Positions 11,710 to 28,496 of a stretch of DNA of 64,000 nucleotides are shown here, piece after piece. The DNA comes from an uncultured Bacteroidales bacterium. Lineage in GTDB: Bacteria; Bacteroidota; Bacteroidia; Bacteroidales; UBA932. Below the pieces are notes generated by a model. That model saw only the letters and a program-made list of their open reading frames with translations. It did no database searches and was not told where the DNA came from. Both the position numbers and the translations under genes were made by a program. Every line of letters begins with the position of its first letter. Position 1 is the first letter of the stretch. The stretch spans positions 24,677-88,676 of the forward strand of contig ONSU01000006.1 of the NCBI GenBank assembly GCA_900320545.1, given 5' to 3'.

Positions 11710-11721
11710 TGTGTGTGTGAT

Positions 11722-12213
11722 ATGATTTTTTTCGGCTATAAAAGCAAAACGCACCGGATCGTCCGGGACGTGATATTCATCCTTCTCGGGGTATTGTTCC
11801 TGTTCTTCCCCGATACGTGGTTTTCCGCGGCGGCGCTGATGGTCGGCATCCGGATTCTCGGGGTCGTCCTGCTGCTGCTCGGTGCTCTGGAGGTCGTGGT
11901 CCTGCTCGGAGCGATGTCGCTGACCGGGGTGGGATTCGTGCCCTTCCTGCTGGCCGTCGGCACGGTGCTGTTCGGTTTCGCGCTGCTCTTCGCGGACGGC
12001 GACGGCAATTACTGGTGGATCAAGATCATCTCCGGCATCGCCCTGCTGTGGTACGGACTGTCGGATCTGCTGTCCGGCTGGAAGATCGGCCGGGCCGTGG
12101 ACGAATACGAGATCCATCGGACCAAGCCCCCCGTGCAGGAGCCGGAGGAAGAGGCGTTCACGCCGTCGGAGCTGGATTCCGCAAAGGAAGTCGAATACCG
12201 CAAGGAGGACTGA
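11722..12213 (+). CDS. DUF308/HdeD-like inner-membrane protein
   Basis: The 163-residue protein is dominated by four to five hydrophobic segments in residues 15-120, ending in an acidic, charged cytoplasmic tail (EEEAFTPSELDSAKEVEY). The length and pattern resemble the DUF308/HdeD family, whose E. coli member is linked to acid resistance. The function here is unknown. The ATG at 11722 is preferred over the GTG at 11713, since the reading frame opens with MIFFGYKSK. It lies 12 bases after recQ and 3 bases before dnaG, so it is part of the same transcription unit. Confidence 0.65.
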   Translation: MIFFGYKSKTHRIVRDVIFILLGVLFLFFPDTWFSAAALMVGIRILGVVLLLLGALEVVVLLGAMSLTGVGFVPFLLAVGTVLFGFALLFADGDGNYWWIKIISGIALLWYGLSDLLSGWKIGRAVDEYEIHRTKPPVQEPEEEAFTPSELDSAKEVEYRKED

Positions 12214-12216
12214 TCC

Positions 12217-14169
12217 GTGATCCCGCAGGAGACCGTCAATCAGATTACCGAAACCGCCCGCATCGAAGAGGTGGTCGGTGATTTCGTGTCCCTGAAGCGG
12301 CGGGGGAGCGACTTTGTCGCCTGTTGCCCGTTCCACAACGAGAAGACGCCCTCCTTCCACGTATCACCGAGCCGCGGCATCTACAAATGCTTCGGCTGCG
12401 GAAAGGCCGGCTCGTCGGTCAATTTCCTGATGGAATACGAGCACCTCACCTATGTCGAGGCGCTCCGGTATCTGGCCAAGAAATACCACATCGAGATCCA
12501 GGAGCGGGAGGAGACGGCGGAGGACATCGCCCGCCGCCAGCGCAGCGAAAGTCTCCACCTCGCGGCCGAATTCGCCCAGAAATTCTTCGTCGAAAGTCTG
12601 CAGAAAGACGAGGGACGGGCCATCGGCCTCCAGTATTTCCATTCCCGCGGGCTGGAGGATGCGACTATCCTCAAATACGGCCTCGGCTGGTCTCCCAGGG
12701 CCCGGAATTCCCTGCTGGACGCGGCCCGCGCGGCGGGATACAAGGACGAATATATGGTCGGCGCCGGGGTCGTCATCCAGCGCGAGGACGGCACCCTTTC
12801 CGACCGTTTCTGGGACCGGGTGATGTTCCCGTTCCATACGGTGAGCGGCCGCGTGGTCGGCTTCGGCGGCCGCACGCTCAAGAAGGACCACGGGGGGATG
12901 AAGTACGTCAATTCGCCCGAAAGCGAGCTCTACGTCAAGAACCAGATCCTCTACGGCCTCTATTTCGCCAAGAACGAAATTTCCCGCACCGGCAAGTGCT
13001 ACCTCGTCGAGGGCTACCTGGACGTGCTGTCGATGCATCAGCTCGGCATCACCAATGTGGTGGCTTCCAGCGGCACCTCCCTCACCGACGGCCAGGTTTC
13101 GCTCCTGAAGCGCTTCACCGAGAACGTCACCATCATGTACGACGGCGACAGCGCGGGCATCCACGCCGCCCTGCGCGGGATCAACATGATCCTCCGCGAG
13201 GGGATGAACGTCAAGATCGTGCTGCTCCCGGACGGGGACGATCCCGACTCTTTCGCCCAGAAACATACGCTGGAGGAAGTGCAGGACTTCATCGCGGAGC
13301 ATGAGCAGGATTTCATCGGCTTCAAGTGCGACCTCCTCCTGGAGGATGCGGCCGGGGATCCGCTCAAGAAGGCCGACCTGATCAATGACATCGCCGACAC
13401 GGTCGCGGAGATTCCCGATCCGATCAAGCGTTCCACCTATACCGAGGCGGTATCCGCCAAGTTCCGGGTCGATCCCGACCTGATCCTGGCCCGCATCGGC
13501 GCGACCCGCCGTTCCCGCCAGAAACCCTCCCCAGGCCAGAGCCGGACGGAAACGCCCGCCCCCGACCCGGAGACCGTCCCGCAGACGGAGCCGGACCAGC
13601 CCCGCGCCCTCCGCGACGAAAACGAGATCCTCGCCCCCGGCGAGCGCGAACTCCTCGCTTTCATCCTCCGCGAAGGGAGCGAGCCGCTCGTGTTCCCGAC
13701 CGATTCGGAGTTCTACAGCCCCGACGGCGTCCCGACCGTGGCGGAATTCATCGACGACGCCCTGGCCTCCGACGATGTCCGGTTCTCCAATTCCGCCTAT
13801 CGCGAGACCTACGAGGCCTATTTCACGCACTATGACGCGGGGGAGGACCAGAAGACCATCATCCTCCGCCTGCTCTCCGGCGAGAATCAGCAGGTCGCCC
13901 GGGTTACCGCCGACCTGTCCGTGGAAAAATTCCAGATCACCGTCCGGGATTTCGAGAAATCGCTGATGGCAAAGGGATCCTGGCTGGCGTCCTATGTCCC
14001 GAGGGCCATCCTGGCCTATCAGGACAAGCGGGTGGAGGCCCGGCTCAGCACCCTCCGGCGCGAACTCATGACCGCCACGGGAGAGGACCAGATCCGCATC
14101 CTGGACGAAATCGGCAAGGCCAATACCCTCAAACGCAGAATCAAAATCAAATTAGGAAGAGAAAAATAA
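12217..14169 (+). CDS. dnaG: DNA primase
   Basis: Synthesises RNA primers at the replication fork. The N-terminal CHC2 zinc finger is clear ([12 protein letters not shown]...YKCFGCG, about residues 36-68). The TOPRIM catalytic core shows [13 protein letters not shown] (near 265) and [12 protein letters not shown] (near 308). A poorly conserved C-terminal helicase-binding region follows after a Pro-rich linker at about 430-460. The length of 650 residues is normal. A GTG start at 12217 is supported by the AAGGAGG ribosome-binding site at 12201-12207. Its stop overlaps the metG start (TAATG). Confidence 0.97.
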
Positions 14170-16376
14170 TGGAGAAGAATTTCAAGAGAACCCTCGTGAC
14201 CTGCGCGCTTCCCTACGCGAACGGGCCTGTCCATATCGGCCATCTGGCCGGCGTATACGTGCCGGCCGACATCTATGTCAGGTACCTCAGGATGCGCGGG
14301 GAAGATGTCCTGTACGTCTGCGGCTCCGACGAGCACGGCGTGCCCATCACCATCAAGGCCAAGAAACGCGGCGTCACGCCCCAGGACGTGGTGGACGAAT
14401 ACCACAATATCATCAAGCAGTCCTTCACGGACCTCGGCATCAATTTCGACATCTATTCCCGCACCACCTCCGCGGTGCACGCGAAGACGGCCTCGGCCTT
14501 CTTCCGCAAGCTCTATGACGAAGGGAAATTCGTCACGAAGGAGTCCGAGCAGTATTATGACGAAGAGGCCAAGACCTTCCTCGCCGACCGCTACATCACC
14601 GGCACCTGCCCCAAGTGCGGCAACCCCAACGCCTATGGCGACCAGTGCGAGAAGTGCGGCAGCACCCTCAGCCCCGAGGAACTCATCGATCCGAAGTCGG
14701 CCCTGAGCGGAAGCGCGCCCGTCAAGAAGAAGACCAAACACTGGTACCTTCCGCTCGACCAGTACGAGCCCTGGCTCCGCGACTGGATCCTCGAGCGGCA
14801 CAAGGAGTGGCGGACCAACGTGTACGGCCAGTGCAAGTCCTGGCTGGACGGCGGCCTGCAGCCCCGTGCCGTCTCCCGCGACCTCGACTGGGGCATTCCG
14901 CTCCCGATCGACGACGCCGAAGGGAAGGTGCTCTACGTGTGGTTCGACGCCCCGATCGGCTACATTTCCAATACCCGCGAACTCCTTCCCGAGAGCTGGG
15001 AGAAATGGTGGAAAGATCCCGAGACGCGCCTCGTGCACTTCATCGGCAAGGACAACATCGTCTTCCACTGCATCGTCTTCCCGTCGATGTGCAAGGGGGA
15101 GGGTGAATATATCCTGACGGACAATGTCCCGGCGAATGAATTCCTCAATCTGGAGGGCGACAAGATCTCCACGTCCCGCAACTGGGCTGTCTGGCTCAAC
15201 GAATATGTGGACCGTTTCCCCGGCCAGGAGGACGTCCTCCGCTACGTGCTCTGCGCCAATGCGCCGGAGACCAAGGACAACGACTTCACCTGGAAGGACT
15301 TCCAGCAGCGCAACAACAGCGAGCTGGTGGCCATCTTCGGCAATTTCGTCAACCGGGCCGCGGTGCTGACCGGGAAGTATTTCGGCGGCAAGGTCCCCGG
15401 CAACCGCAAGCCGGAGCCGGTCGACGCCGAGACGCTCGCGCAGATCCTGCCCTGCCGGGAGCAGCTGGAGAAGAATCTGGAGACCTTCCACTTCCGCGAG
15501 GCGCTCAAAGCGGCGATGGAGATCGCCCGCATCGGCAACAAGTACATCTCCGACACCGAGCCCTGGAAGGTCGCCAAGACCGACATGGACCGGACGGCCT
15601 CCATCCTCTATACCTGCCTGCAGATCTGCGCGGACCTCGCGATCGCCTTCGAGCCGTTCACGCCTTTCAGCGCCGCGAAACTCCGCGGAATGCTCCGGAT
15701 CGGCCTCGAGGCCGGGCACGACTACCGCGCCGGCGAAGTGGATCCCGCCCTCGCGGGTGTCAAAGGCACTGCCGGCGAGAACCTCTACACCCCCGGTGAC
15801 GGCAAGGCCCTCCACACAGCCTCCGCTGCCATCCCCGGGGATCTCCCCCTCTCCTGGTCCGACCTCGGCCGCACCGACCTCCTTCCCGAAGGTCACACCC
15901 TCGGCGAAGTGAGCCTCCTCTTCCAGAAGATCGAGGACGACGTGGTCGCGCGCGAAGTCGGCATCCTGCAGGCCACGAAGGCTGCGAACGAAGCGGCCGC
16001 CAAGGCCGCGGAAGCCGCCGAGGCCGCCAAAAAGGTGGAGCCGCAGAAGGAGGAAGTGACCTTCGACGACTTCGGCCGGATGGACATCCGGACGGCGACC
16101 GTTCTCGCCGCCGAGCGAGTCCCCAAGACCGATAAACTCCTGAAACTCAGCATCGATACGGGCATCGATCAGCGAACCATCGTCTCCGGTATCGCCGAAT
16201 ATTATTCCCCCGAGGAAATGGTCGGCAAGCAGATCTGCATCCTCGCCAACCTCGCTCCCCGCGTCATCCGCGGCATCGAGTCCCGGGGCATGATCCTCAT
16301 GGCGAAGCAGGGCGATGGCAAGATGCGGATCGTCACCCCCGAAGAAACCCTCACCAACGGCGCCGTCATCGGATGA
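14169..16376 (+). CDS. metG: Methionyl-tRNA synthetase
   Basis: Charges tRNA-Met. The catalytic HIGH motif ([12 protein letters not shown]) lies near residue 20. A knuckle with CPKCG...CEKCG (about 143-165) binds zinc, and KISTS near residue 338 is the variant of KMSKS. An Ala/Glu-rich linker (about 600-625) leads to a C-terminal EMAP/Arc1p-type tRNA-binding domain ([20 protein letters not shown] onward). The 735 residues exceed the usual 680, partly through a poorly conserved insert around residues 517-560. It is translationally coupled to dnaG upstream and overlaps murB by 4 bases. Confidence 0.97.
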
Positions 16377-17389
16377 AAATAGAATTTCAGAAAGACCTGT
16401 CGGCCCTCAACACCTTCCGGATGCGGGTAAAAGCCGCTGCGTACGCGGAATACAATTCCGTGGACGAACTCAGGGCCATCCTCGACAATCCCGACCTCCC
16501 CGGTCCGAAATACCACATCGGCGGCGGCAGCAACCTCCTGTTCACCGGCGACTTTCCCGGCACCATCCTGCATTCCTGCCTCAAGGGCCTCATCCTGAAG
16601 CGAGACGAGAGCGGCATCACCGTGCAGGTCGGCGCGGGCGAGACCTGGGACGAATTCTGCGAATGGGCGGCGGCCGAAGGTTTGTGGGGCCCGGAGAACC
16701 TGTCGCTGATCCCCGGCGAAGTCGGGGCGGCGGCCGTGCAGAACATCGGCGCCTACGGGGTGGAGGTAAAGGATATCATCACCGGCGTCGAGGTCCTCGA
16801 CACGCACGACCACACCACCGGCACCATCGATGTGGAAGAATGCGGTTACGGCTACCGGGAATCCCATTTCAAGGGGGAGTGGAAGGGGCGCTTCATCGTC
16901 ACATCCGTTACCTTCCGCCTTACGGAAGACTATGCGCCGCGGCTGGATTACGGTCACGTGAAGGAATCGATGAAAGCGGCCTACGGCGACGAGACGCTCA
17001 CCCCCCGGATGGTGCGCGACGAGATCATCCGCATCCGCCGTACCAAGCTTCCCGATGTGAAGGAAATCGGCAGCGCCGGCAGCTTCTTCAAGAATCCGTA
17101 CGTGACGCAGGAGCAGTACGAGGACATCGCTGACATCTATCCGGAGGTGCCGCATTTCCCGCTCCCCGACGGCCGTGTCAAGATCCCCGCTGCCTGGCTG
17201 ATCGAAAAGGCCGGCCTCAAGGGTTATGTGAAAGGCAATGCCGCGGTCTACGCCAGGCAGCCGCTGGTGATCGTCAACCACACCGGCAAGGCCGCCCCGT
17301 GGGAAATCATCTCCCTGGAGCGCAAGATCATCCGCACGGTCAGATCCCGCTTCGGGGTAACTTTAAGTCCGGAAGTGGAACATATATAG
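16373..17389 (+). CDS. murB: UDP-N-acetylenolpyruvoylglucosamine reductase
   Basis: FAD enzyme reducing the enolpyruvyl group to give UDP-MurNAc. The FAD-binding GGGSNLLF (about residue 48) and the active-site region [10 protein letters not shown] (near 235) are present. The length of 338 residues is typical of the type I enzyme found in Bacteroidota and E. coli. The ATG overlaps the metG stop (ATGA). The next step back in the pathway, murA, lies only 2.3 kb downstream, and the two are separated by the AT-rich immunity island. Confidence 0.96.
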
Positions 17390-17440
17390 ATTATGAGAAA
17401 AGCACTGTCCAAAGTATTGGAATAAGTATTTAATGAATCC

Positions 17441-17944
17441 ATGACAGTACAATGTCGAAAAGGAGACATCTTTGAGGTGAAGCTCGATGATGGCCGGAAA
17501 AGATATTTTCAATTTGTTTGCCGGGATTTGGAAGACTTGAATTCCGATGTAATACGCGTTTTTAAAAAAGTTTTCTCTCCGGAAGAGGATCCCGGCGCGG
17601 GGATTATTAATGAAGAAATCGATTTTTATGTGCATACATCAGTGTATGCAGGGGTGCGCTTCTGTTTGTGGAGAAAGAGTGCTCATAGTAATGAAGTAGG
17701 ATCCTTAGAGATTATTTTTAGAGATTCATTGGATTATGGGTTTAGACACGATGAATCTAAGGTCCAAAAGGTCTCTAAGCGATGGAATGTATGGAAGGTG
17801 AATTGCGAGAGGGTTTTTTATGAAATTTTGCCTGCGGAGTATCATAATGCCTATATTGGACTTGTCTGCTCGCCATATACAATAGCAGAAATAATAAAAA
17901 ATCAACAAACAGTGATTCCCAAATACTACCCCCGATACCAATAA
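17441..17944 (+). CDS. Imm26-like putative immunity protein, copy 1
   Basis: The 167-residue soluble protein starts with the block KGDIFEVKLDDGRKRYFQF, like members of the Imm26-type immunity family associated with polymorphic toxins. This is a motif-level call. It has no signal peptide and no obvious catalytic residues. Its base composition is far more AT-rich than the surrounding 60 percent GC genes, which suggests acquisition by transfer. The first 90 or so bases are almost identical to those of the gene at 18701, while the rest differs strongly. No cognate toxin gene is visible nearby. Confidence 0.6.
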   Translation: MTVQCRKGDIFEVKLDDGRKRYFQFVCRDLEDLNSDVIRVFKKVFSPEEDPGAGIINEEIDFYVHTSVYAGVRFCLWRKSAHSNEVGSLEIIFRDSLDYGFRHDESKVQKVSKRWNVWKVNCERVFYEILPAEYHNAYIGLVCSPYTIAEIIKNQQTVIPKYYPRYQ

Positions 17945-18089
17945 GGCGACGATATTGTTCATACAAAAGGATATTGATAATATGGCAAATGGTGATGTGT
18001 CCATCTTCCTTCAATTATTTGAGACAAAAGTTAAACAGCCAGTATATGCAAACCCTTTAATGTTAAGAAAAATAGGATGGATAAAATAA
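17916..18089 (+). pseudogene. 3' remnant of an unidentified island gene
   Basis: An open frame without a usable start runs from a stop codon at 17913-17915 to the TAA at 18087-18089. Its second half reads like real protein (for example DNMANGDVSIFLQLFETK, then PVYANPLMLRKIGW). It overlaps the end of the copy 1 gene and the start of the next gene. I read it as the C-terminal stub of a gene lost by recombination. A short peptide starting at 17982 is the alternative. Confidence 0.45.
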
Positions 18090-18691
18090 AAAAATATTAT
18101 TGTGTAGATACCAAAACTTATAAGGATGAGCCTCTTGCTTATGCTCCAGAAGGAACTCCTATTGGATTTCAATTATACGATATGATAAAAGATTTGGATG
18201 AATTGCCATTTGAGTTTACATTATATGATGTAAGAAGATCAAATCAGATAAAAAAGATCGGCATATCGGATAAGAGGCCTAAAGATTATATGATTGCCAA
18301 AACGTTGCCGATATTGTCTGCGAAAATGAAGGATATAATTGAGTCTAAACTGAATGGGAACGAAGGCGTACGCTGGATGCCTGCCAAGAACCAGAATGCA
18401 ACAGATACTTTTCAGTATTTTGTTCCCGTTTTTACAAAGTTTCTGGATACTTTGGACATAGAGCATACTTTGTTTTCTATTTGCACGGAGGAGTCCTTCA
18501 TTAAACCATACCGTAATATTATTAAACCCTATTTTAAGGCTTCTGTTGTTCAGCAATATGGTATGTTTCATGATTGTGGTCCTTGTTGGCAGTTTACATT
18601 GGGAATCTATCTCCGGGCTGATATTATGAAAGCTTTGAAACAGGAGAAGATTACGGGCGTTTCGTTTTCTTCACCTGCTTTATTGGTATAA
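18077..18691 (+). CDS. Imm11/Imm43-like putative immunity protein
   Basis: The 204-residue soluble protein has a C-terminal pattern (GIYLRADIMKALKQEKITGVSF) that resembles immunity families such as Imm11 and Imm43. The N-terminal half begins YYCVDTKTYKDEPLAYAPEG. It has no signal peptide. AT-rich composition and AT-rich codons match its neighbours in the island, not the rest of the window. It lies 9 bases upstream of the second Imm26-like gene, so they may be co-transcribed. The assignment rests on overall resemblance and should be read as tentative. Confidence 0.5.
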   Translation: MDKIKKYYCVDTKTYKDEPLAYAPEGTPIGFQLYDMIKDLDELPFEFTLYDVRRSNQIKKIGISDKRPKDYMIAKTLPILSAKMKDIIESKLNGNEGVRWMPAKNQNATDTFQYFVPVFTKFLDTLDIEHTLFSICTEESFIKPYRNIIKPYFKASVVQQYGMFHDCGPCWQFTLGIYLRADIMKALKQEKITGVSFSSPALLV

Positions 18692-18700
18692 CTGTTTAAT

Positions 18701-19204
18701 ATGAAAGTACAATGTCGAAAAGGAGACATCTTTGAGGTGAAGCTCGATGATGGCCGGAAAAGATATTTTCAATTTGTTTGTCGGGATTTGGAGCAACTGA
18801 ATTCCGATGTGATACGTGTTTTTAAAAAAGTATACTTGTCAGACGAGAGCCCATTATCGGATATTATTATCTCAGATGAAGTTGATCAGTATGTGCATAC
18901 ATCTGTTTATGCTGGTGTTAAACTTGGATTTTGGGTTAAATATGGAAAAAGTTCAAATGTTGGAAATCTTGATGTGTATTTTAGGGATGCACGAGATTTT
19001 GGTCGAGAACCTGAAGAGCCTTTAAGAAAGAAGATTTCATATCAGTGGGATGTGTGGAAAATTAATGAGAGGCGTTTCTATGTAGGTAAGTTGCCAGAGA
19101 GGTATTACTGTGCTTATCAGGGTATGGTTGAGCCTCCGTTTTTAGTGGCAGAATGTATAAGAAATTGTCGACCGATAGAAGGACTGTATGACCCGGTTTT
19201 TTAA
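18701..19204 (+). CDS. Imm26-like putative immunity protein, copy 2
   Basis: Paralogue of the gene at 17441, with the same length (167 residues) and a start exactly 1260 bases downstream. Residues 1-44 are nearly identical to copy 1. After that the two diverge to moderate similarity while keeping landmarks such as YVHTSVYAGV and W(D/N)VWK. The pattern of a conserved 5' end with a divergent body suggests recombination or gene conversion between variants with different specificity. It lies 9 bases after the Imm11/43-like gene and 6 bases before the Imm40-like gene. Confidence 0.6.
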   Translation: MKVQCRKGDIFEVKLDDGRKRYFQFVCRDLEQLNSDVIRVFKKVYLSDESPLSDIIISDEVDQYVHTSVYAGVKLGFWVKYGKSSNVGNLDVYFRDARDFGREPEEPLRKKISYQWDVWKINERRFYVGKLPERYYCAYQGMVEPPFLVAECIRNCRPIEGLYDPVF

Positions 19205-19210
19205 TGCAAA

Positions 19211-19576
19211 ATGAGTAGTGTTGATTATTTGTATGATTTCGTCTCTAGTAAGGGGTGTAATATTACAGAGTTTCTTTGTCCGGATGGTCTTACTATGTCC
19301 TCTCGAGATGTCGGTTATTGGGCATTGCAAAAGGATGATGCGTTAACTTTTATAAGAATTTGCAGAAGCGAACTTGTTTTGATTCTTGGCATAGATGTAT
19401 TGACTAAATTGAAGTCAGGTATGTTAGAGTACAATATAGAGTCGTTCTGTTTCGAACGAAAAGGCCGTGAAAATTGGCTGGATAGCGTTCACAATGCGGC
19501 TGGCGGAGCAGAATCATTTATTCAATCTCGTTTAGATGCGACATATTTATTTGTTTTTACAGTCCGGTTTTCTTGA
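19211..19576 (+). CDS. Imm40-like putative immunity protein
   Basis: The 121-residue soluble protein has the segment VGYWALQKDDALTFIRICRS followed by LVLILGIDVL, which resembles the ALxxxDALxxI...ILGGDV pattern of Imm40. One of the two glycines of the ILGGDV motif is replaced by Ile. AT-rich like the rest of the island. It is the last gene before murA, and I see no terminator in the 81-base gap, so murA may receive readthrough from the island. Confidence 0.55.
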   Translation: MSSVDYLYDFVSSKGCNITEFLCPDGLTMSSRDVGYWALQKDDALTFIRICRSELVLILGIDVLTKLKSGMLEYNIESFCFERKGRENWLDSVHNAAGGAESFIQSRLDATYLFVFTVRFS

Positions 19577-19657
19577 AAAGAACGTAAAGAAATGAGAAAA
19601 TGCGATAAGTCCTAAGAAGATAGGGTGTATAAAATAAAATAGAAACAATTATAGACT

Positions 19658-20971
19658 ATGGCATCATTTTCAATTGAGGGTGGACACCCGCTGAGCGGCA
19701 GCATTATTCCGCAGGGCGCGAAGAACGAGGCGCTGGAGGTGATCAGCGCCGTTCTGCTGACCAAAGAGGAGGTCCGGATGTCCAATGTCCCCGAGATCCT
19801 CGACGTCAAAAACCTGATCGGCCTCCTCGAGGGGATCGGCGTCAAGGTCACCCGGCTCGACAGGGGTGAATACATTTTCAAGGCGGACGACCTTAACGAG
19901 GAATATCTCGACAGTCGCGACTTTGTGAAGCGCTGCTCGATGCTGCGGGGCTCCGTGATGCTGGCCGGGCCGCTGCTGGCTCGCTTCGGCCACGTCTATT
20001 TCCCCAAGCCGGGCGGCGACAAGATCGGCCGGCGGAGGGTGGATACCCACATTCTCGGCCTGATGAACCTCGGGGCGGAACTCTCCTACGACGAGACCCG
20101 CAAGGCCTATTTCCTTCAACTCAAGGACGGCCGTCCCCTCAAGGGTACCTATATGTTGCTGGACGAGGCCTCCGTTACCGGTACAGCCAACATCCTGATG
20201 GCGGCTACCCTTGCTGAGGGGCAGACGACCATCTACAATGCGGCCTGCGAACCGTATATCCAGCAATTGACCCGTCTGCTCCGCTCGATGGGTGCCGTGA
20301 TCGACGGGCTCGGGTCCAACCTGCTGACGGTCCACGGCGTGAAGGCGCTCCACGGGGCTTCGCATATCATCCTCCCCGACATGATCGAAGTGGGCTCCTT
20401 CATCGGAATGGCGGCGATGAACCAGAGCGCCATTACCATCCGCAACGTTTCCTACGACAACCTCGGCATCATCCCCCAGGCCTTCCGCCGTCTCGGCGTC
20501 AAACTCGAGCAGCGGGGCGACGACATCTATGTGCCCGCCCAGGAGACCTATCAGATCGAATCCTTCCTCGACGGCTCCATCATGACGATGGCCGACGCTC
20601 CCTGGCCGGGCCTCACCCCGGACCTCCTGAGCGTCATCCTCGTGGTGGCGACCCAGTGCAAGGGCTCCGTCCTCATCCACCAGAAAATGTTCGAAAGCCG
20701 CCTGTTCTTCGTCGACAAACTCATCGATATGGGCGCGCAGATCATCCTCTGCGACCCGCACCGGGCCGTCGTCATCGGACACGACCACCAGTTCCGACTC
20801 CGGGCCAACAACATGCTCTCGCCGGATATCCGTGCGGGTATCGCCCTGCTGATCGCGGCGATGTCCGCGAAGGGCACGAGCGTCATCGGCAACATCGACC
20901 AGATCGACCGCGGCTACGAGAACATCGACCAGCGTCTGAACGCGCTCGGCGCGTCGATTACGCGTGTTTAG
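19658..20971 (+). CDS. murA: UDP-N-acetylglucosamine 1-carboxyvinyltransferase
   Basis: Transfers enolpyruvate from PEP to UDP-GlcNAc, the first committed step of peptidoglycan synthesis. The N-terminal GAKNEAL block (about residues 20-26) is diagnostic. The active-site loop reads FPKPGGDKIGRRRVDTH, so Asp121 stands where most MurA enzymes have the Cys that fosfomycin alkylates. The product has 437 residues, a normal length. GC content returns abruptly to about 60 percent at its start. No Bacteroidota -7 box is visible in the 81 bases upstream. Confidence 0.97.
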   Translation: MASFSIEGGHPLSGSIIPQGAKNEALEVISAVLLTKEEVRMSNVPEILDVKNLIGLLEGIGVKVTRLDRGEYIFKADDLNEEYLDSRDFVKRCSMLRGSVMLAGPLLARFGHVYFPKPGGDKIGRRRVDTHILGLMNLGAELSYDETRKAYFLQLKDGRPLKGTYMLLDEASVTGTANILMAATLAEGQTTIYNAACEPYIQQLTRLLRSMGAVIDGLGSNLLTVHGVKALHGASHIILPDMIEVGSFIGMAAMNQSAITIRNVSYDNLGIIPQAFRRLGVKLEQRGDDIYVPAQETYQIESFLDGSIMTMADAPWPGLTPDLLSVILVVATQCKGSVLIHQKMFESRLFFVDKLIDMGAQIILCDPHRAVVIGHDHQFRLRANNMLSPDIRAGIALLIAAMSAKGTSVIGNIDQIDRGYENIDQRLNALGASITRV

Positions 20972-20982
20972 CGGGCTAACTA

Positions 20983-21012
20983 TTGATTATTAATGTTTTT
21001 TTCCTAATTTTG
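20983..21012 (+). promoter_or_regulatory. promoter of the 21018 gene pair
   Basis: TTG at 20983-20985, 19 bases, TAATTTTG at 21005-21012. The box ends 5 bases before the ATG at 21018, implying a leaderless or nearly leaderless mRNA. Confidence 0.6.
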
Positions 21013-21017
21013 CGACT

Positions 21018-21818
21018 ATGAAAAGAACAATTCTCCTTACTGCAGTGGCGGCGTTGCTTATGATGCTGCCCGTTCAGCGCGCCTCGGCGCAGTACTTCAA
21101 CCACCTTGCGCTCGGTATCACGGCGGGTATCGACGGCTTCGGCCTCGAGCTCGCGGCTCCGCTCGGCAACCAGTTCCAGATGCGTGTGGGCGGTTCGTTC
21201 TTCCCTCCGATGTTTCGTCCCCACCACGTTTTCCATTTCGAAGAGACCGCGGAACATGAGATGGCGGACGTCGACGTGGAGGCGCTCCCGTTGTTCGGCG
21301 GGGCCAACCTGATGTTCGACTGGCATCCGGCCGCCAACAAATGGTTCTTCATCACTGCGGGCGTGTATGCGGGCTCGAGCCAGGTGCTGACCATCCGCAA
21401 CAAGAGACCTTTCCTGAAGGAGGAAGACTGGGGGCATAAAGGCCTGATGATCGGTGACAATGTATTCGCTTCCACGGATGAAAAGGGTATCGCCCATGGC
21501 ACGCTCAACGTATGGCCCGTCCGTCCCTATGCCGGCATCGGCTTCGGCAATGCGATCGATCCGAACAAACGTGTCTGCTTCAATGTCGAACTCGGCGCCG
21601 CCTTCACCAACGGCTATCAGGTAAAGGTATCGGGAGAGAACTATGAGACGGGTGATGAGGGCGTTGTCCGGGTGACCAGCTCCGACTTCTACATCGGTGA
21701 GGATGACGGGGACAGGACCGACAAGAACAATTACGAAGACAAACTCCTCATCGACAAGATGGGCAAATTCCCCGTCGTGCCGATGATCAAATTCGGCCTT
21801 TATATCAGACTATTCTAA
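21018..21818 (+). CDS. Putative outer-membrane beta-barrel protein
   Basis: A signal peptide (about residues 1-25, ending SAQ) precedes 240 residues with alternating hydrophobic and polar strands, many aromatic residues and a terminal aromatic Phe (GLYIRLF), all typical of small outer-membrane barrels. I do not recognise a specific family. It is followed 12 bases later by a lipoprotein gene, and the two probably form one operon with linked surface functions. Confidence 0.7.
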   Translation: MKRTILLTAVAALLMMLPVQRASAQYFNHLALGITAGIDGFGLELAAPLGNQFQMRVGGSFFPPMFRPHHVFHFEETAEHEMADVDVEALPLFGGANLMFDWHPAANKWFFITAGVYAGSSQVLTIRNKRPFLKEEDWGHKGLMIGDNVFASTDEKGIAHGTLNVWPVRPYAGIGFGNAIDPNKRVCFNVELGAAFTNGYQVKVSGENYETGDEGVVRVTSSDFYIGEDDGDRTDKNNYEDKLLIDKMGKFPVVPMIKFGLYIRLF

Positions 21819-21830
21819 AACCCTTCGCTT

Positions 21831-22760
21831 ATGAAAAAGATTTTAGGTATTTTGGCGGTCGCGGCCTTGATGGCTGTCGCCTGCGATCAGGAGAACCACT
21901 CGGGCGGTGATTCCACCGATTCTACGTACACGACGCCCAAGATGCCCGCTCCGATGAACCTGGACAACAACTTCGGTTTTTCCGTGAATCAGTCCCAGGC
22001 GCAGGACGGGATGAAGAATCCCGCCGGTAATATCGACAAGGTCGAGGAAGGAACGCTTCCTCCGGGCGGTACGGGCGTGATTGTCTTCGAGGACGCCGGC
22101 CCGAAAGAGTTCAGTTTCACCGCGCTTGACGGCAAAGTGAAGGCCGGCGCTTCATTCCTGTGCTCCAGAGTGTTCGACCGGATCGATGTCATTTCCGTCT
22201 CCGACGGCAATGCACAGTTGAAATTCACCCAGAGCGGCAAGGCCATTACACTTTCCGCCCAGGTGCAGGGCCAGGTCCCTTCAACGGCTTATGTGCAGGA
22301 TGTCTGCCGCAACTGGGTGGTGGAGGAAACTAAAATTTCCATCAAGGTGCAGGGTGAAGCCAACAAACTCAGCCCCGGCGGGAAGTTCGACGGCTGCAAG
22401 CTGAGTGAGATCAGTCGGGAACTCGTCGATCAGAATGTCAATATCAAGGTCCTTTCTCCTGATTACGACATTACTAAAATTATGATCGCACCCAGCGGCG
22501 ATTTCGCGATCTTTTTTGCAGGGCGTGATCCGTACTTCGGCAAATTCACGCTTAACGGCACCGAATTCAGGTATAAGTTCACCTACTATGAGAAGGATGA
22601 TGACAATCCGGTCATCGCCGGCGAAGCGCAGGGTAAACTCTGGGTGGCGAACGGCAAAGGCCGCCTGAACCTCAAGTCCGACCTGAAGGATGACAGCGGC
22701 AAGGGTTATTCCCTGGATGTGACTCTGGTGATGACGCCCGAGAAGCCGTCCGGGAAGTAA
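21831..22760 (+). CDS. Hypothetical lipoprotein
   Basis: The signal peptide ends with the lipobox AVAC (Cys18), followed by DQENHSGGDSTDS, a surface-exposure-like linker rich in Asp, Ser and Thr. The remaining 270 residues look beta-rich and carry no motif I recognise. It is convergent with the M16 peptidase gene, with only 5 bases between the stop codons, and is co-directional with the outer-membrane barrel gene upstream. Confidence 0.7.
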   Translation: MKKILGILAVAALMAVACDQENHSGGDSTDSTYTTPKMPAPMNLDNNFGFSVNQSQAQDGMKNPAGNIDKVEEGTLPPGGTGVIVFEDAGPKEFSFTALDGKVKAGASFLCSRVFDRIDVISVSDGNAQLKFTQSGKAITLSAQVQGQVPSTAYVQDVCRNWVVEETKISIKVQGEANKLSPGGKFDGCKLSEISRELVDQNVNIKVLSPDYDITKIMIAPSGDFAIFFAGRDPYFGKFTLNGTEFRYKFTYYEKDDDNPVIAGEAQGKLWVANGKGRLNLKSDLKDDSGKGYSLDVTLVMTPEKPSGK

Positions 22761-22765
22761 CTTCG

Positions 22766-24019
22766 CTAGTAGAATATCAACGTGGAAAGTGTCCCTTCGC
22801 CCAGCAGGCGGAGGGACATTTTTTGGATATCCTCCGCCGTGACGGCCTCCACGGCGGCCTTGTTCTCCGCGAAGGAGAAAACGCGGCCGAAAGAAAGGAG
22901 GCTTTTGCCCATCGAAAGGCACTGCGCCTCGCCGTTGTCGGAGGAGATGGCGAGCTGGCCGAGGAGTTGTTTGCGGGCGGCCTTCATTTTCGCTTCCGAG
23001 AGCGGCTTTTCCCGGAGGCGGGCGAGCTCCCGGCCGATGCAGTCGAGGCAACGCTGGAGGTTGGGCTTGTCGCAGCCGAAGGCGATGGTGAAGAGGCCGG
23101 TGTCGCTGTACTGCGTGTAGTTGCATTCGACGTTGTAGACCCAGCCGTTCTTCTCCCGCAGGATGCTGCCGAGGATGGAATTGGAGGCCGGTCCGCCGAG
23201 CAGGTTCATCAGCATCGCGGTGATGATGCGGTCCTTCCCGTCATAGAGGGACGGCGCCGGTCCGCCGATGATGGCGTTGACCTCGTGGTTGCGCCGGTTG
23301 CGGCTCTCGCAGAACACCTGCGTCGGCACGGTCGCCCGTTCGTCCTTCCTGTTCGCATTTCCGTCATTTCCGGGCTTCCTTCCGTCATTCCGGAGCTTGT
23401 CCCTGGATTCCACCCTCCGTTTCACCTTCCTCTCCATCACCTTCTCCTCGATGTCCGCCACGACCGTGAGCGCCATATTCTCCGGCACGAAGAAAGTCCG
23501 GTAAAAACGGCGGAGCTCCTCCGGCGTGATCCGGGAGACGCTGGCCCTCGTGCCGAGAATGCGGCCGCCGAGGGGATGCCCCTTGAAGAGCATTTCGTCG
23601 AAGGTGTCGTAGATGTCCTCAGGCGGATTGTCCTTGTAGGAGATGATCTCGTCGATGACCACGCCGCGTTCGGTCTCGATCTCTGCGTCGGGGAAGGTCG
23701 CTTCCGTCGCAAGTTCGAGGATGAGGTCCAGCGCTTTGTCGATATCCTCTTTGAGGACGGTGGCGTGCAGGACGATTTCTTCCTTGGTGGTATAGGCGTT
23801 GAGTTCACCGCCGAGCCGGTCGAGGCGGGAGGAGATGGAGGCGGCGGTCCGCTTCCGGGTGCCTTTGAAGAGGGTGTGCTCGAGGAAATGGGCGATGCCC
23901 CCGTGGAATCCTTCTTCCGCGCGGGTGCCGCAGCGGATGTGCAGCGCGCAGTAGGCGGCCGCGTTGCCGGCCCTTTTTACGGCGTACCGAAGGCCGCTTT
24001 GAACTGTTCCGCCCGTCAT
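22766..24019 (-). CDS. M16 family zinc metallopeptidase
   Basis: Pitrilysin/processing-peptidase-like protease. The inverted zinc motif HFLEH lies at residues 44-48, and the third ligand is probably E124 in VIDEI. The 417-residue protein has the two M16 half-domains. Between them, at residues 200-230, lies a basic, Asn/Asp/Gly-rich stretch (RNDGRKPGNDGN) encoded by a REP-like palindromic sequence. The ATG at 24019 overlaps the stop of the upstream gene (ATGA), and open frame further upstream is antisense artefact. No signal peptide is apparent, so it is probably cytoplasmic. Confidence 0.92.
   Translation of the reverse strand: MTGGTVQSGLRYAVKRAGNAAAYCALHIRCGTRAEEGFHGGIAHFLEHTLFKGTRKRTAASISSRLDRLGGELNAYTTKEEIVLHATVLKEDIDKALDLILELATEATFPDAEIETERGVVIDEIISYKDNPPEDIYDTFDEMLFKGHPLGGRILGTRASVSRITPEELRRFYRTFFVPENMALTVVADIEEKVMERKVKRRVESRDKLRNDGRKPGNDGNANRKDERATVPTQVFCESRNRRNHEVNAIIGGPAPSLYDGKDRIITAMLMNLLGGPASNSILGSILREKNGWVYNVECNYTQYSDTGLFTIAFGCDKPNLQRCLDCIGRELARLREKPLSEAKMKAARKQLLGQLAISSDNGEAQCLSMGKSLLSFGRVFSFAENKAAVEAVTAEDIQKMSLRLLGEGTLSTLIFY
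23360..23412. repeat. REP-like repeat inside the M16 peptidase gene
   Basis: The plus strand contains TCCGTCATTTCCGG (23360-23373), CCGTCATTCC (23382-23391) and then GTCCCTGGATTCC. This is the layout of the dispersed GTCATTCC...GGATTC palindromes common in many bacteria. The 14-mer at 23360-23373 recurs, inverted, in aroC at 57920-57933. Confidence 0.6.
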
Positions 24020-24864
24020 TGCGCCTGTCTGGAGATGGATTTGAATTCTTTGGCGGTGAAGCCGCGGCCGGTCTTCCCGGTGATGCGGTGCCGTTTGAAG
24101 TAGTACAGGGTATGGTCGTCGGTGCCGATGAGCATCTTGTAGCAGCGCGAGGTGGCCGAAGGATCCTCCGACGCCACGGTGTAGCTGACGATCGTTCCGG
24201 CCGTCCCGTCGATCATCGCGTCGTCGGCGGCATCCTCTTCGACGATCCGCGTCCGGGAGCCCGATTTGTCGAGCGGAGAAACCCGGAAACTGAGGTCGCT
24301 TTCCGTGAAGAGGACATTCCGGTGACGGATTTTCGGGAGGTTGCGGTTGTAGAGACTGAGGCCCTGATAGCCCTCCAGATCCCTTTCCATCGCCTTCAGG
24401 GCGAAATCCTGGATAATGTCGAGAAAGGCCGGAATCATTGCGATCTCCCGTCCCGTCCCGCCGGGAACGCTGAACGGGATGGATACGACTTCCGTCATTT
24501 TCCCGATGCCTTCTTCCGCCTCGGGCCCTCCCTTGACGAGACTGATGAAATCGATTCCCGGCTCCATCTCTCCGCAGAACTGTCCGGTGACGATCAGGAG
24601 GAAGTAATAGTTCGCGTCTTTTTTGAGCGTCTCGAACTCCTGCAGGGTGCACAGTTCGAACGGGGAAATGTGCCAGTGCTCCACCACATCCTGCCGCAGG
24701 GCCCCGTCGATGAACACATTCTCCGTCATCACGACCTTGGTGATCTTCTCCTGCAGGTCGCGGATCTTATACTTCTTGGTCTCGATCTTCCCCTGCGCCC
24801 CGGCCGTCACCGCCCCGATGCACAGCAGAAGTCCCGCGACCATTATTTTGCAAAAATTTTTCAT
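24016..24864 (-). CDS. Hypothetical secreted protein
   Basis: The 282-residue protein begins with a clear signal peptide (NFCKIMVAGLLLCIGAVTAGAQ, cleavage near residue 22) and should be periplasmic or surface-located. I recognise no domain. The ATG at 24864 is chosen over the far upstream start at 25011, because only the former gives a signal peptide and it lies just downstream of a TATATTTG box. Its stop overlaps the start of the M16 peptidase gene, so the two are translationally coupled. Confidence 0.7.
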   Translation of the reverse strand: MKNFCKIMVAGLLLCIGAVTAGAQGKIETKKYKIRDLQEKITKVVMTENVFIDGALRQDVVEHWHISPFELCTLQEFETLKKDANYYFLLIVTGQFCGEMEPGIDFISLVKGGPEAEEGIGKMTEVVSIPFSVPGGTGREIAMIPAFLDIIQDFALKAMERDLEGYQGLSLYNRNLPKIRHRNVLFTESDLSFRVSPLDKSGSRTRIVEEDAADDAMIDGTAGTIVSYTVASEDPSATSRCYKMLIGTDDHTLYYFKRHRITGKTGRGFTAKEFKSISRQAQ

Positions 24865-24872
24865 AGTGGCTG

Positions 24873-24880
24873 CAAATATA
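24873..24880 (-). promoter_or_regulatory. -7 box of the 24864 gene
   Basis: On the minus strand TATATTTG ends 8 bases before the ATG at 24864. Its -33 position falls inside the adjoining MITE-like element, and no TTG is present at the expected spacing. Confidence 0.55.
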
Positions 24881-24882
24881 CA

Positions 24883-25020
24883 AAAAATAAGTTGTATCAG
24901 TGGAAGAAACCGTGGCCGCCCGTGGCCACGTGAACGGGAGGGGCCCGCAAGTCGCAGACTTGTGGGAGGGATGGAGGAGCGAAGCTCCGGAAGTTTCAGG
25001 AACTGATACAACTTATTTTT
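24883..25020. mobile_element. MITE-like 138-bp element with 19-bp inverted repeats
   Basis: Perfect 19-bp inverted repeats (AAAAATAAGTTGTATCAGT at 24883-24901, its complement at 25002-25020) flank 100 bp of GC-rich sequence. The interior holds smaller hairpins, for example CCCGCAAGTC pairing with GACTTGTGGG around 24944-24966. There is no coding capacity and no clear target-site duplication. It lies between two divergent genes. A large structured REP or an invertible segment are alternatives. Confidence 0.55.
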
Positions 25021-25086
25021 GAAGATGTTGTTTTGATATAACCATCAGGCAAAGGGTGAAAAAAGTGATGAGTTACCTGAGGTAGT

Positions 25087-25118
25087 TTTGTGGGAAAACG
25101 GTAAAATGGTTATATTTG
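25087..25118 (+). promoter_or_regulatory. promoter of dnaX
   Basis: TTTG at 25087-25090, 20 bases, TATATTTG at 25111-25118. The ATG lies only 7 bases further, so the transcript should be leaderless or nearly so. Confidence 0.7.
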
Positions 25119-25124
25119 TAAGTT

Positions 25125-26840
25125 ATGAGTAACTATATCGTTTCAGCCAGGAAATACCGGCCCGACTCGTTCGAATCGCTGATCGGCCAGGACAATATCG
25201 CCAGGACGCTGTCCAACTCCATCAAGCGGGGGCAGCTCGCGCACGCCTATCTTTTCTGCGGCCCGAGGGGCGTGGGAAAGACGACCACCGCGCGGATCTT
25301 CGCCAAGATGATCAACTGCGCCCATCCCGGCCCCAACATGGAGCCGTGCGGCGAATGCGAGTCCTGCGAATCCTTCCGTGAAGGGCGATCCTACTGCATC
25401 CACGAAATGGATGCCGCGTCCAACAACAGCGTCGACGACATCAAGGCCCTGCTCGACCAGGTGCAGGTGCCGCCGCCGGTAGGGAAGTACAGCGTGTACA
25501 TCATCGATGAGGTGCATATGCTCTCGCAGGCGGCTTTCAACGCCTTCCTCAAGACGCTGGAAGAACCTCCCGCACACGCCATCTTCATCCTGGCGACGAC
25601 CGAGAAGCACAAAGTGCTCCCGACCATCCTCTCCCGCTGCCAGACCTATGACTTCAGCCGGATTTCCGTGCCCGACATCGAGCGCAATCTCCGCGACGTG
25701 GCCGCGAAGGAGAAGGTGAAAATCGACGAAATGTCGCTGCACGTGATCGCCGTCAAGGCCGACGGCGCGATGCGGGACGCCCTGACCATCTTCGACCAGA
25801 CCGTGGCCTTCTGCGGTACCGACGTCAAATACGAGGATGTCATTCGCAACCTCAATGTGCTCGATTACGAATACGGGTTCTCGATGGTGGATTATTTCCT
25901 CGCCGGAGATTACCAGAAAGCCCTGCTGTCGTTCAACGACGTGCTTTCGAAGGGGTTCAACGCCCTCCATTTCATCGGCGAGATCAGCAGTCATCTCCGC
26001 AACCTCATCGTCAGCCGCAGCGGCGGGATGGACGCGCTCCTGGAACTGCCCGACTCGCTGAAGCAGAAGTATGCGGAGCAGGCGGCCCGGTGCTCGCTGA
26101 AGTTCCTCTACGACGCCCTCGGCATCTCCATCCAGTGTGAATCCGGCTACAAGGCCAGTTCCAATCCCCGTCTTCACATCGAGTTCGCCCTGATGCGGAT
26201 GAGCTTCCTGCTGAAGCAGCCGGAGGCCGCCCCGGCACCTCAGGCCGCTGCACCCGCTCCCGCATCTGCTGCCCCCGCAACTCCCGCCAAGCCGGCTGCC
26301 GCGCCTGCTGAACCGGTAGCCGCGCCCGCAACACCGGCCAGTGAGTCCGCCGAACCGGCGCGTCGCCGGCGCGTCGCCAAGAGCGGCGCGTCGCTGTCGC
26401 TCGGAGCTATTTTGGACGAGAAGGAAGAGAGTGCCGAGACGCCCCAGGTCGATGCGGCGGCCCAGGTAATCCCGTCCGACGACGCCGTGACCGCTGCCTT
26501 CGGGACGCTGGCCGAGCAGTATTCCGGTCAGACCCGGCTCTACAATATGCTCCGGACCCCGGTCCTTCGCTTTGCGGAGGCGGACGGATTCAAGGTCGTC
26601 ACCCTCGTCGTCATCAACGACGCCCAGCGGAAATGGATCGAAGAGCGGCTGCTCCGGGATATGGAGTCAAGTCTTCGCCGCATCTTGTCCACGACGCTGA
26701 TCAAGGTGCTGGTCGACGTGACGCCCGACAGCGAGGTGGAGAAGAAACCCTATATGCCCGGCGAGCAGGCCCTCGATCTGATCTCCAAGAACGAGGAGGT
26801 CCGCAAACTGGTCGAAATCATGAAACTCGATACGAAGTAA
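25125..26840 (+). CDS. dnaX: DNA polymerase III subunit gamma/tau
   Basis: Clamp-loader ATPase of the replicase. Walker [10 protein letters not shown] is at residues 46-54, a Cys-rich zinc module ([17 protein letters not shown]) follows at about 65-85, Walker B IDEVHML near 127, and the sensor segment SRCQTYDF near 170. After about residue 365 comes an Ala/Pro-rich linker and a tau-like C-terminal region. The total is 571 residues, a typical length. I saw no obvious slippery heptamer for a gamma frameshift. It is followed by lptB after one base. Confidence 0.97.
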
Positions 26841-26841
26841 T

Positions 26842-27612
26842 ATGAAATTGCACTGCAAAAATCTGGTCAAGAAATACGGCATCCGGACGGTCGTCAAGGG
26901 CGTTTCAATGGAGGTCACCCAGGGTGAGATCGTCGGATTCCTCGGTCCGAACGGCGCCGGCAAGACGACCAGCTTCTATATGATCACCGGACAGATCGTC
27001 CCCAACGACGGACGGATCTATCTGGATGACGAGGATATCACCGAACTTCCGATGTACAAACGCTCGCAGAAGGGCATCGGCTATCTGCCGCAGGAAGCCT
27101 CCGTCTTCCGCAAGATGTCCGTCGAGGACAACATCATGTCCGTAATGGAGATGACGAAAATGACCAGGGCGGAGCGGGAGGAACGGCTGGAGCGGCTCAT
27201 CGACGAGTTCAACCTCAGCAAGGTCCGCAAGAGTCTCGGAATCCAGCTCTCCGGCGGCGAGCGGCGCCGCTGCGAGATCGCCCGCGCCCTGGCCGTGGAT
27301 CCGAAATTCATCCTGCTCGACGAGCCCTTCGCCGGGGTCGACCCGATCGCCGTCGAGGACATCCAGTACATCATCGCCAAACTCAAATACCGCAACATCG
27401 GTGTCATCATCACCGACCACAACGTCGGCGAGACCCTCGCCATCACCGACCGGGCCTACCTGCTATACGAAGGAACGATTCTCCAGGAAGGCACGCCGGA
27501 GCAGCTGGCCGCCGACGAAGACGTCCGTACGAAGTATCTGGGTTCGGGATTTGTCCTCAAACGTTCCAAGAGCGTCGAGCGTGCCCGGGCCGAGGCCCAG
27601 GGGCAAGACTAG
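26842..27612 (+). CDS. lptB: Lipopolysaccharide export ABC transporter ATPase
   Basis: Cytoplasmic ATPase of the Lpt system that extracts LPS from the inner membrane. Walker [10 protein letters not shown] is near residues 35-43, the signature [15 protein letters not shown] near 135, and Walker [12 protein letters not shown] near 157. The switch segment includes [10 protein letters not shown]. At 256 residues it has a C-terminal extension of about 15 residues beyond the usual LptB length. The first codons overlap dnaX's end by almost nothing (1-base gap). Its stop codon overlaps the convergent ispH stop (CTAG). Confidence 0.93.
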
Positions 27613-28496
27613 ACGACGGCGCGGGCCACTTCCTCCAGCAGCCATTTCGGCGTGGACGTCGCGCCGCAGACTCCGACAGAGTCTCCTTCCGAGAACCATT
27701 CCGGCTTCAATTCCCCGGGACCGCCGATGAGGTGGGTCCGGGGATTTACTTTCCGGCACAGGTCCGAGAGCACCTGGCCATTGGAACTGGCCCTGCCGGA
27801 GACGAAGATGATGACGTCGTGCGCGGCGGCGAATTCCTGCATCCGCTCGTGCCTCATCGCGACCTGCGAGCAGATGGTCTCGTGGACCGTCAGCAGAGAG
27901 GGATCGGGCATTCTTTCCCGGAGGAGGTTGCAGATGGCGGCATATTCGGCGGGACTCTTGGTGGTCTGGGAGAAGATTTCCACGGCGGCATCCGTGCGGA
28001 TCTGCCCCGATTCCAGCGCGGCTTCCAGCATCAGGATATCCTCCACCACGATGGCCCTTCCCTCCACCTGCCCTTGCAGGCCGAGCACTTCCGCGTGACC
28101 GATCTTGCCGAAAATGATGAGGGTTCCGCTGTCCGCCTTCCCGGAATGCAGGCGGCTCCAGGCCTCGCGGATGCTTTTCTGCAGCTGCAGCACCACCGGA
28201 CACGTGCAGTCGATGACGTCAAAACCCTGCGCCTCAGCTCGCCTGTAGGTCTCCGGCGGCTCGCCGTGGGCGCGGATAAGGAGGGATTTGCCGGTCCCGT
28301 CGCCGTCCAGAAAAGACTTGTCGACCGTTACGAGCCCCTTTGCGGAGAGCCGTTCGAGTTCGATGTCGTTGTGGACGATGGCGCCGAGCGAATAGAGCGT
28401 CCGGCCGCCGGCGAGAAAATCCTCCGCCTTCCCGATGGCGCGGATCACGCCGCCGCAGAAGCCGGAGTGGGGGTCTATTTCAACGCTGCGGGGCAT
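27609..28496 (-). CDS. ispH: 4-hydroxy-3-methylbut-2-enyl diphosphate reductase
   Basis: Last enzyme of the MEP isoprenoid pathway, an iron-sulfur protein producing IPP and DMAPP. The three cluster cysteines are recognisable in SGFCGG (C14), CTCPVV (near residue 95) and TICSQV (near residue 196). The 295-residue length is normal. The ATG at 28496 is preferred, because it overlaps the cmk stop (TAATG) and gives the standard N-terminus [17 protein letters not shown]. It ends in convergent overlap with lptB, sharing CTAG. Confidence 0.96.

Follow-up and report, generated by a model that had tools for sequence, protein, structure and literature searches.

Four short open reading frames (ORFs), here called P1 to P4, fill the interval between murB and murA on the forward strand of a 64,000-nucleotide stretch of DNA that was analysed as a whole and is referred to below as the window (Table 1). 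The GC contents of these ORFs (0.39, 0.36, 0.38, and 0.38 for P1 to P4, respectively) stand against 0.61 in both murB and murA, and a scan of positions 10000-28000 found the deep GC dip to be limited to the murB-murA interval, in agreement with the initial annotation, which had described four AT-rich short genes between two core genes of about 60% GC. All four ORFs are intact, with lengths near those of their relatives (167 aa for the P1/P3 type; 196 and 198 aa for the P2 type; and 109, 113, and 125 aa for the P4 type). The annotation was also right that the cluster holds no toxin gene, and it overlooked two features that carry much of the argument below, namely what appear to be tails of toxin genes before the immunity genes and a mosaic formed by P1 and P3. 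With several unrelated immunity genes in one orientation, at short spacing, and with no toxin gene between them, the cluster is built like the heterogeneous polyimmunity loci described in the available text of Zhang et al. 2012 (PMC3482391), which are likewise co-oriented, closely spaced, of unrelated families, and free of toxin genes between them. Unlike the loci in that text, the murB-murA cluster has predicted toxin tails before at least three of its genes, and the site lies between two core genes. Articles given with a PMC number are cited throughout for the portions available.

Table 1 Features of the murB-murA interval (window positions)
Feature	Position	Strand	Remarks
murB	16373..17389	+	Upstream boundary; Pfam MurB_C 2.1e-23, FAD_binding_4 1.6e-18
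Predicted tail of GIY-YIG-like (Tox-URI1) toxin gene, HCPKYWNKYLMNP and stop	17403..17444	+	Stop overlaps P1 start (ATGA)
P1, putative Imm26-family orphan immunity protein, 167 aa	17441..17944	+	Family HMM without window sequences, 2e-45
Direct repeat, similar 5' ends of P1 and P3	17441..17609 and 18701-18869	+	85% over 169 nt
Predicted tail of AHH-type toxin gene, ...ANPLMLRKIGWIK and stop	17946..18089	+	27 aligned residues (GDVS to LRK), then GW; stop 10 bases inside P2
P2, Imm11 immunity protein, 204 aa	18077..18691	+	Pfam Imm11 22.6 bits, cut-off 22.1
Tail-like stretch before P3, YWYNCLI and stop	18681..18704	+	Overlaps P2 end; aligns with DNA before P1
P3, putative second Imm26-family protein, 167 aa	18701..19204	+	Family HMM without window sequences, 2.6e-48
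Probable tail of Ntox19-like toxin gene, TRFFNAK and stop	19191..19214	+	Overlaps P3 end and P4 start (ATGA)
P4, Imm40-like immunity protein, 121 aa	19211..19576	+	HMM of three relatives, 1.6e-7
Second AHH-like tail (post hoc), ENAISPKKIGCIK and stop, no immunity gene behind	19596..19637	+	Before murA; 23-nt repeat with 18069-18091, 87%
murA	19658..20971	+	Downstream boundary; Pfam EPSP_synthase 1.5e-60

Family assignment of the four proteins

Pfam profile scans placed P2 barely above the cut-off of Imm11 (PF07791; Table 1), and the other three proteins were assigned through relatives. P1 and P3, which are 55-56% identical to each other, have no Pfam Imm26 match themselves; across the 57 members of their family (P1, P3, and the 55 of 86 relatives that passed a length and score filter), 33 matched Imm26 (PF15428) at E 0.01 or better. 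P4 matched no Pfam family, Imm40 (PF15569) included, and two of the three P4 relatives scanned lie above the Imm40 cut-off (L096, 52.6 bits; L180, 41.1 bits), the third, L181, having no Pfam match. The GGD motif of Imm40 is altered in P4, which reads LGID versus LGGD in L096, L180, and L181, and because of this replacement we name P4 only “Imm40-like”. Family HMMs, built with window sequences left out from 72 (P1/P3), two (P2), and three (P4) sequences, each found only their own members among all window ORFs of at least 60 aa, i.e., P1 and P3, P2 (1e-22), and P4 (other values in Table 1). Every one of the four proteins is thereby joined to an immunity family, P2 directly and P1, P3, and P4 via relatives, and the families guessed initially (Imm26 twice, Imm11, and Imm40) hold.

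The murB-murA junction and distribution of the genes

We searched 37 genomes of the genus with murA and murB and derived gaps from match coordinates. The two genes follow in order within about 100 bp in 22 genomes, carry an insert at the junction in four (2.3 kb in the own genome, 2.1 kb in G005, 1.1 kb in G026, and 6.4 kb in G021), lie in another arrangement or on separate contigs in five (G004, G009, G011, G023, and G027), and have one or both partners unmatched in six (G002, G010, G013, G015, G019, and G035). Of the other inserts, that of G005 encodes a C10 peptidase, those of G026 and G021 each include a Band 7/SPFH protein, and G021 adds a GH31 enzyme and two TIR proteins; no immunity family appeared among the matches of the seven proteins scanned from these three genomes. 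With inserts in three other genomes as well, the junction tolerates cargo.

Relatives of P1 were found in one of 61 near genomes, this being the own genome; those of P3 in seven of 295 genomes of the order, those of P2 in three of 198, and those of P4 in two of 198, the own genome counted each time. Two-row models A2 and A3 matched three and four of 395 genomes of the phylum, again with the own genome included, and the whole cluster was not found in any other genome searched. Position and orientation alone would allow the four to be housekeeping genes of a murB-murA operon, a reading that is almost certainly wrong, as it is contradicted by a distribution in which nothing lies between murB and murA in 22 of the 37 genus genomes and P1 relatives occur, among the 61 near genomes, in the own genome only. 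The same figures bear out the initial view of an insertion in a core-gene context. Among the listed hits of the literature searches, in a collection with few subscription journals, no account of immunity genes between murB and murA was met. Two candidates were rejected on the way, namely G199 as a P2 relative (a weak match, 7.8e-4, inside a 588-aa ORF) and G552 as a relative for model A2 (a weak match with nine stops). Separately, G148 holds a weak match for P3 (9.8e-4) with two stops, and further weak matches lie in G114 (for P3) and G615 (for model A3).

Partner toxins next to relatives of the four genes

A single collection scan (best 80 of 118 matches) yielded 79 Imm26-family loci, two of which were dropped for too little upstream DNA. 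Among the 77 kept from these best 80 of 118 matches, a full toxin domain stands directly upstream in 23 and a partial or broken one in 21, and none was detected in 33; the partial class includes near-complete broken domains (L099, L114, L116, and L122), possibly the product of frameshifts or of errors in assembly. At L083, a place identical with L110, the P1-type gene, taken as its longest ORF, starts inside the end of a gene of 1333 codons that carries DUF6443 and RHS repeats. L083 and L084 come from genomes of the order searched, and the DNA of both turns up again in L110 (from a Bacteroidales bacterium) and in L143 (Paludibacteraceae), which places the own genome in Bacteroidales. The C-terminal domain of the L110 toxin aligns with 16 other such domains. 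GIY-YIG was the top Pfam family for nine of the ten partner domains scanned, all of them below the cut-off (14.8-21.7 versus 22.6 bits); the partner domain of L102 had no Pfam match, and NCBIfam gave no match for the five Imm26-partner domains scanned.

For the other two families, the Imm11 relative L179 comes after an AHH toxin (67.1 bits, 1.6e-18) and the Imm11 relative L095 after an 88-aa AHH fragment (20.7 bits, cut-off 22.3), and the Imm40-type relatives L096, L180, and L181 come after toxins with HRLF or HRFF ends. These toxins fit Ntox19 because their ends match the published HxxF motif, and the name is motif-based, no Pfam or NCBIfam model having matched their C-terminal parts. Scanning five larger partner genes whole returned RHS/DUF6443 (L083 and L096), MafB (L180), and AHH (L179), and no match for the partner gene of L181. 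The toxin types found here make up the same three pairs, Imm26/Tox-URI1, Imm11/Tox-AHH, and Imm40/Ntox19, that are given in the available text of Zhang et al. 2012 (PMC3482391): Tox-URI1 (GIY-YIG) as partner of Imm26 through the full upstream domain in 23 of 77 loci (from the best 80 of 118 matches) and the predicted P1 tail, and AHH as partner of Imm11 through the L179 toxin and a P2 tail resembling the L095 fragment.

Toxin-gene tails before the immunity genes

The +1 frame before each gene runs to a stop at the start codon of P1, P3, and P4, and to a stop 10 bases inside P2. The specificity of these putative tails was tested with tail models for URI, AHH, and Ntox19 at 20000 fresh control sites, the cluster being left out. 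Under the URI, AHH, and Ntox19 models, in that order, the numbers of the 20000 controls that reached the score of the tail were 0, 1129, and 7304 for P1; 10358, 0, and 9299 for P2; 1776, 5789, and 3120 for P3; and 18879, 16055, and 85 for P4. Read against the partner toxins above, the sequences point strongly to P1 and P2 being preceded by tails of the correct toxin type.

The P1 tail model spans nine residues and was made from 17 toxin ORFs of at least 150 aa. It was adopted after an 11-residue model had missed P1, because the P1 tail starts later, and the 20000-control specificity test came after this choice. In the first nine-residue test, the P1 score was reached at three of 6370 control sites, on a grid that takes in some sites near enough to reach the tail. 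A tail for comparison is APKYWNKYRVK in L107, and a whole-domain HMM gave the P1 tail 5.9 bits (E 0.97). The P2 tail scored 58 against the L095 fragment, a value reached by none of 2000 shuffles and none of 3864 window stretches, and has no likeness to the toxin end of L179 (1381 of 2000 shuffles were as good), which leaves L095 as the one reference behind the AHH call. Its left border is undefined because the frame stays open as far upstream as 17916, which lies in P1.

Before P4, the score was reached by eight of 8094 AT-rich sites of exact ATGA geometry; this short tail carries T at the position of H in the Ntox19 motif, and we hold with moderate confidence that it derives from an Ntox19-like toxin gene. 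The stretch before P3 is not significant alone (1776 of 20000 controls) and draws its support from a resemblance at the DNA level to the sequence upstream of P1, so that a toxin tail of P3's own is only weakly suggested. The AHH-like tail before murA was noticed from the repeat and then scored post hoc against one reference, the P2 tail; 16 of 86744 stop-anchored AT-rich windows reach its score, all of them copies of itself or of the P2 tail. No immunity gene follows it.

Trimmed tails, one of which (before murA) lacks an immunity gene, together with ends of P2 and P3 that overlap foreign tails, are what might be expected of a dying relic of a former toxin locus at murB-murA, retained by chance and with no present role. 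We regard such decay as unlikely, if deserving of some weight, given that none of the four frames is interrupted, that their lengths are close to those of their relatives, and that the predicted structure of P1 is confident (pLDDT 92.3).

The P1/P3 mosaic

Synonymous codon identity between P1 and P3 is 0.85 in codons 1-45 and 0.49 beyond, compared with a between-locus baseline of 0.46 (5' part) and 0.45 (rest) from 5001 pairs. At 0.49 versus 0.45, the 3' parts of the two genes are about as diverged at silent sites as members from separate loci, and at 0.85 versus 0.46, their 5' parts point to a more recent common source. The likeness extends into the DNA upstream of both genes. Of 27 pairs within a locus (P1/P3 included), 20 had the higher synonymous identity in the 5' part and seven did not, the pairs being non-independent. 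The longest repeats found consist of immunity-gene and toxin-tail sequence, and no repeat unit is shared by all intergenic gaps of the cluster.

Tandem esaG and tipC genes (Garrett et al. 2022, PMC9484751) are known to exchange sequence through blocks of homology; in the available text they resemble P1 and P3 in being paralogues that have such blocks in common and recombine through them. Those genes belong to Firmicute type VII families, whereas the genes here are of Imm26, with one 5' block that extends into the stretch before the gene.

Orphan status and relation to acquired interbacterial defence systems

A DUF6443 search of the own genome (2.55 Mb, 93% complete) gave no match, there or in the control genomes. 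RHS repeats were matched once, at 24.5 bits (cut-off 22), within an ORF of 132 aa. The initial annotation's claim that the immunity genes are orphans is likely to be correct, because DUF6443 went unmatched (with the control genomes also silent) and the RHS-repeat match is confined to a 132-aa ORF. The RHS-repeat match is also what speaks for the four being immunity genes cognate to toxins from another place in the own genome, which we consider quite improbable, since the ORF has 132 aa and the 93% complete assembly is silent for DUF6443, as are the control genomes.

AID-1, an acquired interbacterial defence (AID) system, reportedly has short, co-oriented, AT-rich orphan immunity genes resembling those here, as Ross et al. 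are said to have described in 2019. The initial annotation had gone further and read the cluster as an AID system directed at type VI effectors, which is not supported: the own genome had no VipB match (the E. coli control matched), and no recombinase was found among the neighbours scanned one by one (metG, murB, murA, 21018-21818, and the M16 peptidase) or among the 25 families listed of the 47 matched in 31 window proteins. Recombinase-associated AID (rAID) arrays are defined, in the available text, by a tyrosine recombinase, co-oriented short genes of <41% GC, and conserved intergenic motifs (PMC12247911); the genes upstream here are murB and metG, where an adjacent tyrosine recombinase would stand in such an array. 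Co-oriented short genes of <41% GC, as in that definition, and a host belonging to Bacteroidales would still fit an AID system, recombinase-associated or carried by an element, that counters type VI effectors of Bacteroidales and has lost its recombinase. This is improbable in our view: no recombinase was seen in the scanned neighbours or among the 25 listed of 47 window families, the longest repeats are immunity-gene and toxin-tail sequence, and a type VI link of the partners is unsupported. Overall, the cluster shares with rAID, as portrayed in the available text of PMC12247911, and reportedly with AID-1, its short co-oriented AT-rich orphan immunity genes and, unlike them, has no recombinase in the scanned neighbours and no supported type VI link; membership of the recombinase-linked AID systems and type VI specificity are both not supported. 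For TANFOR, another Bacteroidetes toxin class, type IX export has been proposed (PMC7073777, available part).

Origin and working of the cluster

We think it likely that the cluster is a heterogeneous polyimmunity locus that arose from displaced 3' ends of toxin-immunity modules, is probably expressed with murB and murA, and would protect against toxins of other strains. The unit would be the 3' end of a toxin-immunity module, i.e., a toxin-gene stub followed by its immunity gene. Incoming modules would have displaced older toxin ends with the immunity genes retained, so that the array grew, partly via recombination in the shared tail and 5' immunity sequence, and the toxin body would later have been lost or would never have arrived. 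The units share the strand of murB and stand downstream of it, and they are probably expressed from the murB transcript, such that the immunity proteins would be made from a murB-murA transcript; a promoter scan gave 12 versus 6.4 (sd 2.3) in shuffles, an excess that decides nothing in a region of mixed GC. Judged by family and partner, the proteins would bind nucleases of other strains, of the GIY-YIG-like, AHH, and Ntox19-like types, and block them. Such protection by P1 to P4 is plausible because an orphan Rhs immunity protein of Serratia protects against another strain's toxin (PMC10539506, available part).

Precedents for the displacement step come from two systems. In rhs tips, displacement of toxin ends has been proposed (Jackson et al. 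2009, PMC2935791), and the dissociated tips resemble the murB-murA cluster in being GC-poor strings of displaced toxin 3' ends; in the available text they retain core sequence and come after an intact rhs gene, unlike this cluster, which has 7 to about 30 recognisable toxin codons and no rhs gene. For Vibrio cholerae arrays, sequential effector displacement has been proposed (Kirchberger et al. 2017, PMC5361080), with immunity genes that, as here, outlast displaced effectors, and with one step that shifts the effector 3' end back. The Vibrio array, so far as the available part describes it, comes after an effector in a type VI cluster, whereas the murB-murA cluster has no adjacent toxin or secretion gene.

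Orphan immunity arrays are thus known as a kind, and what is new here is an unusually clear record of an array's making. For the rAID arrays of Bacteroidales, the available part of PMC12247911 describes the means by which immunity genes are gathered as unclear. In the murB-murA cluster, the toxin type of most units can apparently still be read from the remaining tails, and since the P1/P3 mosaic locates the recombination and the tails name the toxin types, the growth mechanism becomes testable.

A bolder reading, which we offer tentatively and think unlikely, takes the transferable immunity unit to be “last toxin codons + immunity gene”, with the tail as part of the cargo, because the toxin end would carry the translation-initiation region of the immunity gene as well as homology for allele recombination. 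If true, a cell could use such minimal cassettes to gather immunities with no toxin, recombinase, or secretion genes, and they would be parked in an essential operon for steady expression. On the likely account given above, of displaced module ends kept for protection, the predicted resistances of the strain are to GIY-YIG-like, AHH, and Ntox19-like nucleases.

Possible recombination between repeats in the cluster

The 5' ends of the two Imm26-family genes, P1 and P3, form a direct repeat (169 nt, 85%), and a crossover between its copies would fuse P1 with P3 and lose the Imm11 gene P2. An AHH-like tail (the last codons of a toxin gene), lacking an immunity gene, precedes murA; because it has a 23-nt repeat (87%) in common with the toxin tail of P2, recombination between these tails could likewise remove P2 to P4. 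The toxin tail of P1 shares PKYWNKY with that of an Imm26-type orphan at locus L107, where an unrelated 95-aa ORF ends inside the stretch preceding the orphan.

Inserts and related loci in other genomes

Three further genomes of the genus carry other inserts at the murB-murA junction. Elsewhere, four Imm26-family genes lie in tandem at L162, spaced by 7 bp, with 90-93% identity between neighbours over the first 45 codons. At L084, an Imm26-family orphan and a second small gene (35-36% GC; locus 51%) lie directly 3' of a gene that resembles, by eye, purine nucleoside phosphorylase, perhaps another parking place beside a core gene. At L086, an Imm26 relative is the last in a row of four small genes (24-35% GC); a Pfam scan gave no significant match for the other three, and the row is perhaps another orphan immunity array.

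Features of the window and of other loci
Sequence	Coordinates	Feature
Window	17441-17609 / 18701-18869	Direct repeat, P1 / P3
Window	19596-19637	AHH-like toxin tail
Window	63307-63999	Partial peptidyl-arginine deiminase family protein at window end (PAD_porph 1.9e-18)
L063		Junction insert: C10 peptidase
L064		Junction insert: Band 7 protein
L065		Junction insert: Band 7 protein, GH31 enzyme, two TIR proteins
L084	7433-8331	Gene pair
L086	7449-9428	Four-gene row
L107	3082-3448	Imm26-type orphan with toxin tail APKYWNKYRVK
L162	7000-8976	Tandem Imm26-family genes
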